The notes under the pieces were generated by a model. The model was not told the DNA's origin. It ran no database searches and was given only the letters and a program-made list of their open reading frames with translations. Shown here piece by piece: positions 12,048 to 50,188 of a stretch of DNA of 64,000 nucleotides. Position numbers and translations under genes: made by a program. Source of the DNA: Tabrizicola aquatica (lineage in GTDB: Bacteria > Pseudomonadota > Alphaproteobacteria > Rhodobacterales > Rhodobacteraceae). Within the stretch, counting starts at the first letter, position 1; each line of letters opens with the position of its first letter. The stretch lies in contig NZ_PJON01000001.1 of the NCBI RefSeq assembly GCF_002900975.1, forward strand, positions 930,001 to 994,000, given 5' to 3'.

Positions 12048-12869
12048 TCAGGCGGCGCGGGTCGCCAGCCAGCGGCGCAGGAAGGCGGCAAGGAAAAGCG
12101 CGGTCAGGATCAGGATGATCGTGGGCGCGGGGGCGGAATCCAGATGGAAGCTGGCATAGACGCCAGTGGTCATGGCGAACAGGCAGACCAGCACCGCCGT
12201 GACCAGCATCGCGCCGAAACTGCGCGTCACCAGAAAGGCGATGGCCCCCGGCGCGATCAGAAGGCCGATGGCCAGGATCAGGCCGACCGAGGACAGCGTG
12301 GCCACGATGGTCAGCGCCAGGATGGCAAGGAGGCCATAGTGCAGAAGCGGCGTCCGCAGGCCCGAGACCTGGGCCTGGGCCGGGTCGAAGGCGTGCAGCA
12401 TCAGGTCGCGCCATTTCAGCACCAGGATCAGCGTCACCGGCGCGGCAATGGCGGTGGCGGTCAGCAGGTCCGCGCCCCCTACCCCCAGCATGTTGCCGAA
12501 CAGGATGTGGTCCAGGTGGATATCCGACGGAAAGGCGGTGTGCAGCACGATCCCGGCCGCGAACATCGCCGAAAAGACCACCCCCATCACCGTATCCCGC
12601 TTGATCCGGCTGTTGTCGGCCAGCCAGCCGGTCAGAAGCGAGGAGCCAAGCCCCGCGACGAAGGCCCCCAGAAGGAGTGGCAGCCCCGCCATATACGCCA
12701 GCACGATGCCCGGCAGGACCGCGTGGCTGACCGCATCCCCCATCAGCGCCCAGCCTTTCAGGACCAGAAAGCAGGACAGAAGCGCCGTTGGCGGGGCCAC
12801 GATCAGCGCGATCAGGAAGGCGTTCTGCATGAACGGAAACTGGAAAGGCTGGATCAGGGCGTCGATCAT
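12048..12869 (-). CDS. sitD: Mn/Fe ABC transporter permease (SitD-like)
   Basis: A 273-residue inner-membrane permease of the ABC-3 (metal) family with about eight hydrophobic segments. The conserved family helix region WALMGDAVSHAVLPGIVLAYMAG near residues 45-67 is clear, as is FSAMFAAGIVLHTAFPSD. Its ATG overlaps the TGA of the preceding permease gene by 4 bp. With that gene it would make a heterodimeric channel fed by the SitA-like binding protein. The symbol is by family and operon layout; MntD/ZnuB-type names are possible. Confidence 0.88.
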   Translation of the reverse strand: MIDALIQPFQFPFMQNAFLIALIVAPPTALLSCFLVLKGWALMGDAVSHAVLPGIVLAYMAGLPLLLGAFVAGLGSSLLTGWLADNSRIKRDTVMGVVFSAMFAAGIVLHTAFPSDIHLDHILFGNMLGVGGADLLTATAIAAPVTLILVLKWRDLMLHAFDPAQAQVSGLRTPLLHYGLLAILALTIVATLSSVGLILAIGLLIAPGAIAFLVTRSFGAMLVTAVLVCLFAMTTGVYASFHLDSAPAPTIILILTALFLAAFLRRWLATRAA

Positions 12870-13696
12870 GCTTTGGCCCTGCGTTTCGCGGCGAGAAGGC
12901 CGTGTTTCGGGGCGAAGAGGAAGGCCAGCGCGAAGCAGGCGGTCTGCAAGAGGACGATGACACCCCCCGTGGCCCCGTCCAGGAAATAGCTGAGGTAGGC
13001 GCCCGCAAAGGCGGTGGTCGCTCCGATCCCCGACGCAAGGGCCAGAAGGCGCGGGAACCGGTCGGTCAGCAGATAGGCGGTGGCGCCAGGGGTGACGACC
13101 ATGGCGACGACAAGGAAGGCGCCCACGGTCTGCATCGCGGCGACGGTCGAGGCGGAAAGGAGGGTGAAGAATACCACTTTCAAGAGGTCGGGGCGCAGGC
13201 CGATGGTGCGGGCATGGGCCTCGTCAAAGAAGGTGACCATCAGGTCTTTCCAGAGGACGACGAGGACGGCGGCCGAGATGCCCCCGATCAGGATCAGTTG
13301 CAGCGTATCCTCGGGCGAGATGGCCAGGATATTGCCCATGGTGATGGTCTGGATCGAGACGGAGGTGGGGTAGATCGAGATGAGGAACAGGCCGAGGCCG
13401 AAGAACGAGGTGAAGATGAGGCCGATGATGGTATCGGTCTTGAGCCCGGTGCGGTTGGTCAGGAACAGCATGGCGGCGGCGGCGAGGCCGCCCGATAGAA
13501 AGGCGCCGAGCGCGAAGGGCAGACCCAGGATGTAGGCGCCTGCCACGCCGGGGACGACGGAGTGCGACAGCGCGTCGCCGATCAGAGACCAGCCCTTCAG
13601 CATGAGGTAGGCCGAGAGGAACCCGCAGACGCCACCGACCAGGGCCGAGACCCACATCGCGTTGGTCATGTAGCTGTAGGCGAAGGGCTCAAGCAT
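12866..13696 (-). CDS. sitC: Mn/Fe ABC transporter permease (SitC-like)
   Basis: A 276-residue ABC-3 family permease. Motifs: LKGWSLIGDALSHSVVPGVAGAYILG near 33-56 and GLIFTSFFGLGLFLIS near 93, with alternating hydrophobic helices to the C-terminus and a short basic tail (LLAAKRRAKA). It is paralogous to the downstream permease. It is separated from the ATPase gene by 144 bp that hold a palindromic repeat, unlike the tight spacing elsewhere in this operon. Confidence 0.88.
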   Translation of the reverse strand: MLEPFAYSYMTNAMWVSALVGGVCGFLSAYLMLKGWSLIGDALSHSVVPGVAGAYILGLPFALGAFLSGGLAAAAMLFLTNRTGLKTDTIIGLIFTSFFGLGLFLISIYPTSVSIQTITMGNILAISPEDTLQLILIGGISAAVLVVLWKDLMVTFFDEAHARTIGLRPDLLKVVFFTLLSASTVAAMQTVGAFLVVAMVVTPGATAYLLTDRFPRLLALASGIGATTAFAGAYLSYFLDGATGGVIVLLQTACFALAFLFAPKHGLLAAKRRAKA

Positions 13697-13750
13697 GGCC
13701 GGCCGCGCGGGGGTTGGGGCGGTTTTCTGATTGAGCGCCTTGCGGCGCGA

Positions 13751-13832
13751 GCCTTTTGTCTCGCCGTTTTGCGTGAAGGACGCAAAACGGCTCGGAGAGC
13801 CTCCGGCGGGGATATTTGCGGACAGAAAATGC
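13751..13832 (+). repeat. Palindromic intergenic repeat, family A, copy 1
   Basis: This lies between sitB and sitC. It holds a perfect 12-bp stem, GCCGTTTTGCGT (13763-13774) with ACGCAAAACGGC (13780-13791), and a GAAGG loop. An overlapping small stem GGCTC/GAGCC (13789-13793, 13797-13801) could form instead. A conserved tail from CTCCGGCGGGGATATTTGCG through ACAGAAAATGC follows. The copy at 49688 shares the layout, the loop and 31 of 32 tail positions, with compensatory changes in the stems. Confidence 0.8.
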
Positions 13833-13840
13833 GGGGCCGG

Positions 13841-14707
13841 TCATTTGTCGCCCTTGCGGCCGTACTGGACGAAGGGGCGTTCGTCGTCGGTCAGGATGCT
13901 GATCTCGCGGCTGTCGTCGTCCTCGTGCAGGTCGGTGCCGCCCAGGGTGAAGTGACGCAGGACGCCGCCGAAGGCATGTTCCAGGTTGGCGCGGGTGAAG
14001 GTGGTCTCGGTCGGGCCATAGGCAAGGACAGTGCCTTTGACGAGGACGGTCCGGTCGCAGAAATCGGGGACCGAGCCCAGGTTGTGGGTCGAGACCAGCA
14101 TCACATGCCCCTCGTCGCGCAGGGTGCGCAAAAGGGTGATGATCTGCTCTTCGGTCGTCACGTCCACCCCGGTGAAGGGTTCGTCCAGAAGGATGATCCG
14201 CCCCTCTTGCGCCAGGGCGCGGGCGAGGAAGACGCGTTTCTTCTGGCCGCCGGAGAGTTCGCCGATCTGGCGGTGGCGCAGGTCGGAGAGGCCGACGCGG
14301 GCAAGGGCCTGATCGACCTTGGCCCGGTCGGTGGCCGAGGGGCGGCGGAGGAACCCCATGTGGCCGTATCGGCCCATCATCACCACATCCTCGACCAGGA
14401 CCGGGAAGGACCAATCCACCTCCTCGGCCTGGGGGACATAGGCGACGAGGTTCCGGCGCAGCGCCTCGCGGACGGGCATTCCAAGCAACCGGATCGTGCC
14501 GCGGGCGACGGGGACAAAGCCCATGATCGCCTTGAAAAGCGTGGACTTTCCTGCGCCGTTCACGCCAACGAGCGCGGTGATCGTGCCGCGCGGGATCTGG
14601 AAGCTGGCGTCGGTCAGCGCCGTCAGCCCGTTGCGGTAGGTGACGGTCACCCCTTCGGCGAAGATGCCCTCGTCCCCTGCCCCCAGATCGCCCGCGGTGT
14701 CGCGCAT
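13841..14707 (-). CDS. sitB: Mn/Fe ABC transporter ATP-binding protein (SitB-like)
   Basis: A 288-residue ABC ATPase. Walker [10 protein letters not shown] is near residue 48, the Q-loop in [11 protein letters not shown] near 90, signature [18 protein letters not shown] near 150, Walker [10 protein letters not shown] near 170 and the H-loop VSTHN near 205. The [12 protein letters not shown] stretch is typical of the Mn/Zn ABC-3 importers. It begins 7 bp after the binding-protein gene. The C-terminal ~40 residues are acidic and charged ([20 protein letters not shown]), which is a little longer than average. Confidence 0.9.
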
Positions 14708-28619: not shown

Positions 28620-28675
28620 GGCTTTCTCTTCTCAAAATATCCCACGGGAGGTCCGGAGGGTGTGAAACCCTCCGG
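28620..28675 (-). repeat. Hairpin plus tail in the iscR-desulfurase gap; diverged family A-like element
   Basis: On the minus strand CCGGAGGGT (28675-28667) and ACCCTCCGG (28661-28653) make a perfect 9-bp stem with a 5-nt loop. The stem is followed by ACCTCCCGTGGGATATTTTG and AGAAGAGAAAG. That tail resembles the conserved tail of the elements at 13751 and 49688 (CCTCC, then GGGG/GGG, ATATTT, a purine-rich run). It could reduce read-through or shape mRNA stability between iscR and the operon. Confidence 0.5.
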
Positions 28676-46668: not shown

Positions 46669-49134
46669 ATGCTGACCGCCTTTCGCTGGCTGATCCGCCT
46701 GTTGACCGGAGCCATCGCGCTGGGGCTGGTCGTGCTTTTGCTGGCCTACTGGATCCTGTCGCGCTCTCTGATCGACTATTCCGAGGACTTCACCGTGCCC
46801 GGCATCTCGGCCCCGGTCGAGATCGTGCGCAACAACGACAACGTGCCGCATATCTTCGGGGCGACGGATCAGGACGTGTTCTTTGCGCTGGGGTTCGCCC
46901 ATGCGCAGGACCGGCTGTGGCAGATGACCATGCTGCGGCGCACCGCGCAGGGGCGGCTGTCCGAGTTGTTCGGCCCACCCACCGTCAAGGTCGATGAGCT
47001 GATGCGGCGGCTGGACCTCTATGGTCTGGCGCTGGAGGCGGTGGCGGCACAGGACCCCGAGACGCAGGCGGCGCTGGAGGCCTATGCGGCCGGGGTGAAT
47101 GCCTGGATCGGCCAGGTGAACCAGGGCGCACGCGGCCGGGGCGCGCCGGAGTTCTTCCTGTTCGAGCCCGAGATTTCCGCCTGGGCCCCGGCGGATTCGA
47201 TCGCGATCCTGAAGCTGATGGCGCTGCAGTTGACCGACTCGGCGCAGAAAGAGATCCTGCGGGCGCGGGTCTCGTTGCTCTTGTCGCCCGAGCGGCTGGC
47301 GGACCTGCTGCCGGACGATCCGGGGCAAGGCGTGGCCGCCCTGCCCGATTATGCCAGCCTGGTGCCGGGTGTGGCACCCGAGGCGCGGCCGGTGGACTTT
47401 GCGCTGGGGCCGTTCTCGCCGGTCGCAGACCCCGGCATGGCGGGGGCATCGAATGCCTGGGCGGCGATGCCCGGACGCTCGGCCGCGGGGGGGAGCCTTC
47501 TGGCCAACGACCCGCATCTGGGGCTGACGGCGCCGACGATCTGGTACCTGGCGCGGCTGGAACTGGCCTCGGGCGGGGTGATCGGCGGCACGATCCCGGG
47601 GGTGCCAGTGGTGCTGGTGGGCCGGTCCGAGCGGTTGGGCTGGGGGCTGACCACGGCCTATGTCGATGACCAGGACGTGCTGATCGAAGAGGTGAACCCC
47701 GAGAATACAGAGGAATATCGCACCGCCGACGGCTGGGCGCGGTTCGAGAGCCGGCAGTCGATCATCACGGTGAAGGACGCGGATCCCGTGACGCTGACGC
47801 TGCGCTGGTCGCGGCATGGGCCGATCCTGCCGGGCACGCATTACGACCTGGCGACGATCACCCCGCCCGGCCATGTGGCGGCGCTGGCCTGGACGGCGCT
47901 GGCGGGGGCGGACACCTCGATGACGGCGGCGATGCGGCTGATGCGCGCGGGCACGGTGGCCGAGGCGCTGGAGGCGGGCCAGTTGGCGGTGGCACCGGCG
48001 CAGAACCTGACGCTGGCGGATGCCAGCGGGATCGCGCTGCAGGTGGTGGGCGCCCTGCCCGCACGGGATGCGGGGAACCCCGGCCAGGGCCGGCTGCCGG
48101 TTCTGGGGGCGGATGCGCGGGCCGGGTTCAAGGGGGTGCTGACCTATGAAGGAAACCCGCGCTTCGTCGATCCGGCCTCGGGCCTGCTGGGCAATACCAA
48201 CAACAAGACGGTGGACCGACCCTTCCCGAACCATGTCAGCTTTGACTGGGGTGACACGCAGCGCATCCAGCGCTGGCTGACGCTGATGAAGGCGCGCGAG
48301 GTGCATACGCGGGAAAGCTTCATCGAAGCGCAGTTGGACACGGTGAACCCGACGGCGCGGGCGCTGTTGCCGCTGATCGGGGCGGACCTGTGGTTCACCG
48401 GGGAAGCGGCGCCGGAGGGCACGCCGGAACGCTTGCGCCAGCGGGCGCTGGTGCTGCTGGCGGAGTGGAACGGCGAGATGAACGAGCATCTGCCGGAACC
48501 GCTGATCGCCGAAGCCTGGATGCGGGCGCTGATGCAGCGGCTGATCCGGGACGAGATCGGGGCCATGGCGGACAGCTTCACCCATATCTCTCCGGTCTTC
48601 ATCGAACGGGTCTACCGCAACGTCGGCGGCGCGAGCGTGTGGTGCGACGTGATCCAGTCGGCGGCGGTGGAAAGCTGCACTGACATTGCCCGGATTGCGC
48701 TGGACGAGGCGCTGCTCCAGCTTGCCGAAACCTATGGGCCGAACCTGGAAAGCTGGCGCTGGGGCGATGCGCACCAGGCGACCCACGACCATCCGGTGCT
48801 GGGCGAGGTGGCGTTCCTGAAATACTTCGTCAACATCCGGCAATCGACGTCGGGCGGAGACGACACGCTAATGCGGGGCGTAAGCCGCGGCGAGGGGCCT
48901 GAGCCCTATCAGAACGTGCATTCCGCCGGCTATCGCGGGGTCTATGACTTTGCCGACCCTGATTCATCGGTCTTTATCAGCGCGACTGGACAGTCGGGCC
49001 ATCCCTTGTCGCGGCACTATGATGATCTGGGCGAGTTGTGGCGGCGGGGAGAATACATCCCGATGTCGCTGGACCCCGACCTGGCGCGGGCAGCGGCGGC
49101 CGGCGTCATGGTGCTGACACCAGAGGGACAGTGA
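46669..49134 (+). CDS. Penicillin acylase family protein
   Basis: An 821-residue Ntn-hydrolase. An N-terminal membrane anchor (WLIRLLTGAIALGLVVLLLA) is followed by the alpha chain region (EIVRNNDNVPHIFG, DVFFALGFAHAQDRLWQMTMLRR), a spacer, and the nucleophile S261 after GA in GASNAWAAMPGRS, which begins the beta chain once the precursor is cleaved. Later marks: LANDPHLGLTAPTIWYLARLE, PGVPVVLVGRSERLGWGLT and NTNNKTVD. The family includes penicillin and N-acyl-homoserine lactone acylases. A substrate cannot be named. Confidence 0.9.
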   Translation: MLTAFRWLIRLLTGAIALGLVVLLLAYWILSRSLIDYSEDFTVPGISAPVEIVRNNDNVPHIFGATDQDVFFALGFAHAQDRLWQMTMLRRTAQGRLSELFGPPTVKVDELMRRLDLYGLALEAVAAQDPETQAALEAYAAGVNAWIGQVNQGARGRGAPEFFLFEPEISAWAPADSIAILKLMALQLTDSAQKEILRARVSLLLSPERLADLLPDDPGQGVAALPDYASLVPGVAPEARPVDFALGPFSPVADPGMAGASNAWAAMPGRSAAGGSLLANDPHLGLTAPTIWYLARLELASGGVIGGTIPGVPVVLVGRSERLGWGLTTAYVDDQDVLIEEVNPENTEEYRTADGWARFESRQSIITVKDADPVTLTLRWSRHGPILPGTHYDLATITPPGHVAALAWTALAGADTSMTAAMRLMRAGTVAEALEAGQLAVAPAQNLTLADASGIALQVVGALPARDAGNPGQGRLPVLGADARAGFKGVLTYEGNPRFVDPASGLLGNTNNKTVDRPFPNHVSFDWGDTQRIQRWLTLMKAREVHTRESFIEAQLDTVNPTARALLPLIGADLWFTGEAAPEGTPERLRQRALVLLAEWNGEMNEHLPEPLIAEAWMRALMQRLIRDEIGAMADSFTHISPVFIERVYRNVGGASVWCDVIQSAAVESCTDIARIALDEALLQLAETYGPNLESWRWGDAHQATHDHPVLGEVAFLKYFVNIRQSTSGGDDTLMRGVSRGEGPEPYQNVHSAGYRGVYDFADPDSSVFISATGQSGHPLSRHYDDLGELWRRGEYIPMSLDPDLARAAAAGVMVLTPEGQ

Positions 49135-49640
49135 CCGGCGTTCCGACCTTGCGCACGGCGCGGCTTGTGCTGCGACAGGCGGTCTGGGCGGATCTGGAGG
49201 CGGTTCACCGGCTTATGTCGGACCCGCGCGTCATGCGCTATTGGTCGCGGCCCGAGCATGAGACCCTGGGTGAGACGCGGCACTGGCTGGGCTTCCTGAT
49301 CGATCAGGCCGAGGACAGCCGCGACTGGCTGATCGAGACGGATGGCGTGGTGATCGGCAAGGCCGGGGCCTGGGCCTTGCCGGAGGTCGGCTTCCTGCTG
49401 GCGCCCGCATATTGGGGTCAGGGCCTGGGCTTCGAGGCGATGACGGCGGTGATCGCGCAACTGGAGGCCGAGTTCCCTGCCCTGCCGGCCCTGACCGCCG
49501 AGGTCGATCCGCGCAACGCAGCCAGCCTGCGGCTGCTGGACCGGCTGGGCTTTCACGAGACGCATCGGGCGGAGCGGACGCTCTTGTGGCGCGACGAATG
49601 GTGCGACAGCGTCTATCTGGCCCGGCCCCGGTCTGGGTAG
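49131..49640 (+). CDS. GNAT family N-acetyltransferase
   Basis: A 169-residue RimJ/RimL-type GNAT. Marks: LRTARLVLRQAVWADLEAVHRL at the N-terminus, EVGFLLAPAYWGQGLGFEAM (acetyl-CoA-binding loop) and NAASLRLLDRLGFHETHRAERT. The start GTG at 49131 overlaps the acylase TGA (GTGA), so it is translationally coupled to the penicillin acylase gene. It would modify a free amino group or hydroxyl. Whether the two act on one molecule is open. Confidence 0.87.
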   Translation: MTGVPTLRTARLVLRQAVWADLEAVHRLMSDPRVMRYWSRPEHETLGETRHWLGFLIDQAEDSRDWLIETDGVVIGKAGAWALPEVGFLLAPAYWGQGLGFEAMTAVIAQLEAEFPALPALTAEVDPRNAASLRLLDRLGFHETHRAERTLLWRDEWCDSVYLARPRSG

Positions 49641-49687
49641 CCGTCCCGCAGGTCGGGGCGGTTTTCAAATTGTGCGCTGACGCGCGT

Positions 49688-49770
49688 GCCTTTTGTCTCG
49701 TGCTTTTGCGTGAAGGACGCAAAAGCACTCGGGAGTGCCTCCGGCGGGGATACTTGCGGACAGAAAATGC
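49688..49770 (+). repeat. Palindromic intergenic repeat, family A, copy 2
   Basis: This lies between the convergent GNAT and membrane-protein genes. A perfect 12-bp stem, GTGCTTTTGCGT (49700-49711) with ACGCAAAAGCAC (49717-49728), carries a GAAGG loop. The alternative stem GCACTC/GAGTGC (49725-49730, 49733-49738) overlaps it. The same conserved tail follows. Compared with 13751, stem bases changed on both sides so pairing is kept. Confidence 0.8.
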
Positions 49771-49771
49771 C

Positions 49772-50188
49772 TTAGGCGGTGCGCGGTGGGGATAGCGCCC
49801 AGGCGACGACGGCGAGCAAGACTGCGATTGCGGTTGGTGTGTGGAGCGGGTGAAGGAAAAGGTCGGTCAACGGTTCGGACCAGACCCAGGTGGTCCCGAA
49901 GTCCAGGACGAAGGGCCGGATTAGCTGAGCGGCGGCCCAGAACCACAAGAGGACAACGAGTGGCAGCGCGATCCAGCGGACGGCAAGCCGGTTGACCAGT
50001 CCTGCAACAAGCGGAATCGGGAGAGTTGCGCCCAAGGCGGTCAGGGCAAGTTCGGCCGCGGTGACCTTGACGCCTGGATAGGCCGGAAACCGTTGGCCGA
50101 GGTAGTCGCCGGGGATGCCCAGAAGCGCGTGGAACCAGAGTGTCCCGGCTGCCGCAATCCACAGGGCGGCGAGGCGGCGGGCCATCAT
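49772..50188 (-). CDS. Membrane protein of unknown function
   Basis: A 138-residue protein with four hydrophobic segments (LAALWIAAAGTLWFHALLG, KVTAAELALTALGATLPIPLVAGLV, VRWIALPLVVLLWFWAAAQLI, LHTPTAIAVLLAVVAWALS). I do not recognise a family. The start is one of two adjacent ATGs at 50188/50185; the longer open frame overlaps the upstream gene. It lies 31 bp behind the DUF4241 gene on the same strand. Confidence 0.7.
   Translation of the reverse strand: MMARRLAALWIAAAGTLWFHALLGIPGDYLGQRFPAYPGVKVTAAELALTALGATLPIPLVAGLVNRLAVRWIALPLVVLLWFWAAAQLIRPFVLDFGTTWVWSEPLTDLFLHPLHTPTAIAVLLAVVAWALSPPRTA

Follow-up and report, generated by a model that had tools for sequence, protein, structure and literature searches.

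A mosaic intergenic repeat with covarying hairpins in Tabrizicola aquatica and its relatives, possibly acting at transcript 3' ends

Repetitive extragenic palindromic (REP) elements are reported to shield messages from 3' exonucleases or to set the proportion between two operon messages, REPs with Y1 transposases and integron attC sites serve as models for the recognition of a folded single DNA strand, and ERIC and NEMIS are small mobile repeats resembling miniature inverted-repeat transposable elements (MITEs). For the REPs of the GTAG and CGTC superfamilies and for bacterial interspersed mosaic elements (BIMEs), the portion of PMC3733652 drawn on here describes short palindromic intergenic units in tens of copies, arranged in mosaics and head-to-head pairs, with stem letters that vary by complementary changes and with sites between tandem or convergent genes. 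According to the same portion, a Y1 transposase (RAYT, REP-associated tyrosine transposase) is a feature of the GTAG but not of the CGTC repeats, and many REPs are argued to be transcribed on the grounds of G-T pairing and position. The repeat family described here resembles REPs and BIMEs in structure, mosaicism, copy number and the kind of site occupied. Two of its copies lie in the window, by which we mean the whole analysed stretch of 64,000 nt from Tabrizicola aquatica (GCF_002900975.1, contig NZ_PJON01000001.1, positions 930,001 to 994,000, forward strand).

Covariation of the stems and the strand that folds

The first-pass annotation of the window had described two intergenic elements, each with a CTTTTGTCTCG lead, a 12-bp perfect stem closed by a GAAGG loop and a tail shared at 31 of 32 positions, and all of these features are present (Table 1). 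The base of the stem, as it had also observed, is GCCG/CGGC in one copy and GTGC/GCAC in the other. A scan for the tail pattern with up to three mismatches found two places in the window, namely these two copies, and none of 100 shuffles contained two matches. The similarity begins about 35 bases further upstream than first noted, which adds a second hairpin (A) to the long one (B) and brings the alignable homology to about 117 bp (approximately 13717 to 13831 against 49654 to 49769).

The stems of A and B covary, both across loci and at one orthologous site. In 22 copies from the T. aquatica genome, 96.2% of 341 pair cells hold a standard pair and nine of the 16 pairs show double changes (48 cells). 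Neither the paired percentage nor the covariation score was reached by any of 500 shuffles, and with the partner slid by 1-3 columns 23-61% of the cells are paired. At the orthologous site, the spacer between the ATPase and permease genes of a metal ATP-binding cassette (ABC) transporter, 93.1% of 318 cells are paired and double changes are present in 39 cells, in an alignment that was itself fitted to the model. Changes of a single side that keep a standard pair are almost absent (0 of 341 cells across loci, 2 of 318 at the orthologous site). The number of further standard pair types showed no excess, being reached by 466 of 500 shuffles for the 22 copies and by 87 of 500 for the orthologous site. 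Matched changes in both arms are seen at the site of copy 2, which reads GTGCTTTT in T. aquatica and GCGCTTTT in genome G028; hairpin B of the latter has GCGC in place of GTGC, the other arm is changed accordingly, and the second arm matches in each genome. The earlier proposal that stems are kept while their letters change is thus borne out by double changes within one genome and at one site, and unpaired stems are not common: 84 distinct long B stems comprise 37 perfect ones, 35 with one mismatch and 12 with two or three. Whether the structure is one of RNA or of DNA is not settled by covariation alone.

The types of mismatch in these stems reveal which strand folds, a G·T pair on one strand being an A·C mismatch on the other. 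In the 84 stems (at least nine pairs each; 45 type-2 copies, which share an inherited imperfect stem, were set apart, and at least one likely chance match, from Paraburkholderia, was retained, adding no A·C or G·T), plus-strand letters give 29 cases of A·C or C·A against five of G·T or T·G (two-sided binomial p 3.9e-5), counts that are not fully independent because orthologous stems may share an inherited mismatch. An earlier count over 41 B stems gave 16 A·C and one G·T. Since the mismatches of the plus strand are mainly A·C, the wobbles lie on the minus strand, and it is the minus strand that folds in B. The copies from the genus are the 120 best-scoring places among the matches listed, a choice that biases the sample towards intact stems and, if towards either mismatch on the plus strand, towards G·T rather than A·C. 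The loops of hairpin A agree with folding of the minus strand: in 186 copies they read GCAA (62), GAA (39), GCA (20) or GAAA (5) on that strand, and a further group with a GCGC stem has a GTCA-like loop. The mismatches of A do not indicate a strand (G·T 1, C·A 1; 36 'TC' cells are 4-bp stems forced to 5), and those of C-type hairpins are too few for a strand call (A·C 3, G·T 1).

Modules, copy number and genomic sites

The element is a mosaic of modules in fixed order: hairpin A with its T-rich tail, a variable hairpin B, hairpin C, and an end consisting of ATATTT, three variable bases and tail D. On the plus strand, copy 1 reads left end GGGCGGTTTTC, hairpin A, CTTTTGTCTCG, hairpin B, CTCGG, module C, ATATTT, three variable bases and tail D. 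The inner pairs of A are CC/GG, CG/CG or GC/GC depending on the copy; B also has a short form, GGGC-GCAA-GCCC on the minus strand; module C is either CCTCCGGCGGGG or a hairpin of the form G5-loop-C5 with a further run of C behind it; and the types of tail D include GACAGAAAATG, GCAAATGTGAAAGG, GCAAAGATGAAAGG, GCCAGTATGAAAGG, CGAAGGGAAAG and GGAAGAGAAAG. Modules C and D also stand alone: the pattern GGATATTT-N8-12-AAA has 74 forward and 63 reverse matches in the genome, the variable gap making some reverse places count twice, against 0 and 0 for the reversed control. One such module lies in the window, flanked by two minus-strand genes. For 49 stand-alone modules the neighbouring genes were read as ++ (25), -- (13), +- (8) and -+ (2), with one unresolved. 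As in BIME-type mosaics, A+B thus occurs with differing C and D, with C+D standing alone elsewhere, and as facing copies. At 20 loci of other genera the frame of hairpin A, a T-rich linker ending in TCTCG, a hairpin and CTCGG is visible in most, and the B hairpins are quite different.

Table 1 Features of the two copies, of a third relative and of neighbouring genes in the window
Feature	Position	Strand	Description or basis
Copy 1, whole element (left end, A, B, C, D)	13717..13831		Alignment with copy 2; A+B covariance-model match 102.6 bits
Copy 1, hairpin A	13735..13748	-	GCGCC-TTGC-GGCGC in plus letters; minus loop GCAA; alignment fold
Copy 1, T-rich linker CTTTTGTCTCG behind hairpin A, conserved	13753..13763	+	Sequence; plus-strand terminator-like match
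Copy 1, hairpin B, 12 bp, GAAGG loop on plus	13763..13791	-	Sequence, alignment fold, covariation; folded strand from mismatch types
Copy 1, module C CCTCCGGCGGGG, ATATTT, variable GCG, tail D GACAGAAAATG	13800..13831		
Metal ABC permease gene, next in the same operon	12866..13696	-	PF00950
Manganese/iron-type ABC transporter ATP-binding protein gene	13841..14707	-	Stop codon adjoins tail D of copy 1; NF011630, 459 bits, cut-off 393
Copy 2, whole element	49654..49769		Alignment with copy 1; A+B covariance-model match 87.4 bits
Copy 2, hairpin A, GCGC-TGAC-GCGC on plus	49674..49685	-	Sequence, alignment fold
Copy 2, T-rich linker CTTTTGTCTCG	49690..49700	+	Sequence; plus-strand terminator-like matches
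Copy 2, hairpin B, 12 bp	49700..49728	-	Sequence
Copy 2, module C, ATACTT, variable GCG, tail D	49738..49769		
GNAT-type acetyltransferase gene, ends just ahead of copy 2	49131..49640	+	PF13302
Gene without assigned family	49772..50188	-	Stop codon adjoins tail D of copy 2; no Pfam/NCBIfam match
Stand-alone C+D module, third relative in the window	28622..28675	-	Hairpin, GGATATTT, TGA, tail GAAGAGAAAG; pattern scan

Further observations concern the arrangement of the modules. Four loci contain copies in tail-to-tail arrangement, their D tails separated by a short stretch, like paired REP elements, and at five others, from several genomes, an extra hairpin module (e.g. GCGACATGGTTTGC-TCGAACCATTGGC-GCAAACCCTGTCGC) lies between B and C. 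Between ATATTT and tail D, three bases are more variable than the sequence around them, the first being mostly G and the second and third mixed (n=164 copies). When the T. aquatica genome and 294 others of the family were scanned, GGATATTT-N3 was found to be followed by tails that occur repeatedly in one genome and are not the same from genome to genome. Such recurrence is visible by eye in about nine of the 23 genomes with matches listed, examples being CCAAGAAGAAA in G249, GCGAAGGTGAAA in G229 and AACCCAAA in G123; many of the remaining genomes have counts of GGATATTT-N3 tails no higher than the reversed control.

An A+B covariance model built from the 22 copies identified 51 places at E up to 1 in the T. 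aquatica genome (3.87 Mb, 12 contigs), both window copies included, and a DNA search of the same genome gave 51 rows, some of them partial or self-inverse. In the genus, Tabrizicola and relatives, the model matched all 32 genomes searched (E up to 0.001), the number of matches per genome ranging from 13 to 53, and in the wider family it matched 32 of 295 genomes at E up to 1e-4 with stricter filters, two of these belonging to the same genus. Among the matches listed for the B core (80 of 83), most come from Tabrizicola, Rhodobacter and that group; one is from a Phycisphaerales bin and one from Paraburkholderia, the latter looking like chance. A DNA search of annotated plasmids gave no match.

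The genes next to the copies were called with our own codon-usage caller, trained on 17 genes of the window, rather than taken from annotation, and neighbours were read for 50 of the 51 copies in the T. aquatica genome. By their neighbours, 170 copies fall into 86 sites, 75 of which have both flanks called (++ 24, +- 23, -- 22, -+ 6) and 11 of which are unresolved. At 69 of the 75 sites at least one gene ends towards the element, 23 sites being convergent and six divergent; and in the 120 genus copies, 35 of the 50 genes ending at the A side stop within 31 nt of A+B. The sites thus lie mostly just behind a stop codon, next to many unrelated genes and in all gene orientations. No preference for one orientation was found after clustering by site (++ 24, -- 22). 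An apparent preference for the minus strand among the best-scoring genus copies, where the gene at the D end was on the minus strand in 90 of the 116 whose right-hand gene was called, vanished on clustering because orthologous sites had been counted repeatedly.

Copy 1 occupies the spacer of the ABC transporter operon. The element is present there, in the same orientation, in 20 of the 28 genomes that have both genes on the locus, and its modules B, C and D differ between sister species. The other eight genomes lack A+B at this site: three have an unrelated repeat and two have no spacer, and in one genome each there is C+D alone, the left end alone or some other sequence. None of these eight, all from the ABC-operon site, offers a clean empty site with a target-site duplication. 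The unrelated repeat, with CCCCACCCC...CCCTCCCC and GGGGGGAGGG hairpins, replaces the element in the three genomes mentioned and stands beside it in a fourth. One site cluster spans 11 genomes.

A possible role at transcript ends and its alternatives

We tentatively favour the reading, to which we assign a probability slightly below one half (about 0.48), that the family consists of mosaic, hairpin-built intergenic repeats of Rhodobacterales, BIME-like in kind, whose hairpins act at the 3' ends of transcripts; the action on transcripts is what we infer. On the plus strand, hairpin A together with CTTTTGTCTCG would end transcripts running into the element. On the minus strand no run of U comes after A, so transcription arriving from the D side would pass, and copy 1 could persist inside its operon because of this. 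The passing minus-strand transcript would carry the hairpins of C and B, either behind a stop codon or, as in copy 1, between two operon genes, where they might hold back 3' exonucleases and so set the lifetime of the upstream message or the ratio of the two operon messages. Each window copy has three terminator-like matches, against 0.4 and 0.3 in shuffles, and hairpin A with the T-rich linker on the plus strand is among them in both; the T-run begins 0-5 nt behind the stem, depending on the stem drawn. At least five T in an 8-nt window behind A were found on the plus strand in 92-98% of the ++, +- and -- copies and on the minus strand in 8% of 253. The covariation of the stems, the wobbles on the minus strand of B, the sites behind stop codons and the presence of the element inside the ABC operon in 20 of 28 genomes also speak for this reading, as does the argument in PMC3733652 that many REPs are transcribed.

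A number of observations weigh against this reading. The count of T behind A is anchored on TCTC, which favours the plus strand. One of the terminator-like matches of copy 1 lies on the minus strand, although it looks like chance. The strand signature seems to be independent of gene direction, which an action at transcript ends leaves unexplained: the minus strand, the one that folds, is antisense at roughly half of the tandem sites, and no relaxation is seen, the B stems being no worse at sites of this kind and the T-rich tail of A no weaker in the -- copies. Likewise, the excess of A·C, which is 22 to 2 where the gene at the D end lies on the minus strand, persists at 6 to 1 where it lies on the plus strand, the latter in few cases and both counted over copies, not distinct stems. 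The loop of the long B form, GAAGG on the plus strand, gives no pointer to the minus strand. Folding energies do not single out the minus strand either: compared with shuffles, it lies lower than the plus strand in copy 1 (z -4.06 versus -3.09), and in copy 2 the plus strand is the lower one (z -2.28 versus -1.72).

A strand signature that belongs to the element and not to the neighbouring genes is better explained if the repeat is mobile or selfish DNA, one strand of which, folded single-stranded, is recognised by a trans-acting enzyme, with gene ends being the places where insertions are tolerated. The tens of copies per genome fit this explanation, as do the several tail types, recurrent inside a genome and different from one genome to the next. 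On the other hand, a search for the Y1 transposase domain PF01797 gave matches in 5 of 14 control genomes and none in the T. aquatica genome at E up to 0.001; the sites are old, as judged from the 11-genome cluster and the operon site common to 20 of 28 genomes; the end-to-end complementary run has a length of 5.13 against 5.20 in shuffled partners (n=164); and the one site examined closely gave no clean empty site with target duplication. Overall, we regard mobility as somewhat unlikely, though a close rival of the transcript-end reading, and the two readings may both hold, one after the other. A more specific version, according to which Rhodobacterales carry a new class of mosaic mobile elements that use one folded DNA strand without a Y1 transposase, with GGATATTT-N3 plus tail as a right-end code co-evolving with the enzyme and with hairpins later used at transcript ends, appears doubtful. 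A further possibility requires no selection: once the hairpins had spread, template switching from one arm to the other in the course of replication or repair (quasi-palindrome correction) could keep the arms matched. The near absence of one-sided standard changes despite common double changes fits such a process; it leaves unexplained the ratio of A·C to G·T as well as the conserved linker, loops and preference for gene ends, and with 47 of the 84 B stems carrying at least one mismatch or gap, we consider it improbable.

The same low standing is given to the view that these are ordinary intrinsic terminators, alike by chance. It would account for the terminator-like matches and for hairpin A with its T-rich linker, but on the minus strand neither B nor C is immediately followed by a T-run, the operon that contains copy 1 runs in the minus direction, and plain terminators would not need modules, linkers and tails repeated in sequence. 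The first-pass annotation had suggested a possibly switchable hairpin, in which the middle segment can pair upstream or downstream and a smaller stem overlapping B (GGCTC/GAGCC in one copy, GCACTC/GAGTGC in the other) covaries as well. Both alternatives can be drawn in the two window copies. The family confirms the strong B stem and not the small one: among the 114 of 182 distinct copies that have CCTCCGG downstream, the small stem is possible in 16 (partner-shuffled mean 13.2, maximum 20) and upstream pairing of the middle segment in four (6.3 shuffled). Since neither pairing exceeds the shuffled expectation, a switch is not supported, and with copies behind many different genes in every orientation its probability is close to nil. 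A pairing of the two ends of the element, prompted by the fold of copy 1, was rejected for the lack of any excess over shuffles (n=164).

Should the repeats act on transcripts as favoured above, they would add a gene-end element to those of these bacteria. Tens to more than 100 modules per genome lie at gene ends in widespread environmental bacteria and match no Rfam family, and a single site with many stems in many species and a readable folding strand constitutes a natural experiment on the upkeep of palindromic repeats.

Relation to known repeats

Mosaic palindromic intergenic repeats are a known kind of element; the present family has neither an Rfam match nor REP tags beside B. Neither window element is matched by an Rfam covariance model, whether at the gathering score or with E values up to 1, and no description of the family appeared among the openly licensed papers listed by the literature searches. 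Within 6 nt of the B stem, the one stem inspected for tags, GTAG occurs in 0 and CGTC in 2 of 182 distinct copies in plus letters, and the reverse-complement tags in none. The family differs from REPs and BIMEs further in its four unlike modules, which span about 117 bp in fixed order, and in its ATATTT-N3-tail end. Its B stem is 12 bp long, compared with the 8-9 bp stated for CGTC repeats in the part of PMC3733652 used here.

The MITE-like repeats ERIC, RU and NEMIS share with the family a length of about 100 bp, an intergenic position, folding, lack of coding capacity and repetition. The ends of the present element are not complementary beyond chance (5.13 versus 5.20, n=164) and form no terminal inverted repeats, and no target duplication was seen at the ABC-operon site, the one examined closely. 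Within the same order, the HRC-8-4 motif of Rhodobacterales, as far as the consulted portion of PMC8632094 describes it, is alike in having a stem whose loop letters are conserved and an architecture resembling that of a terminator; judged by that description, the present family is set apart from it by its occurrence behind many unrelated genes.
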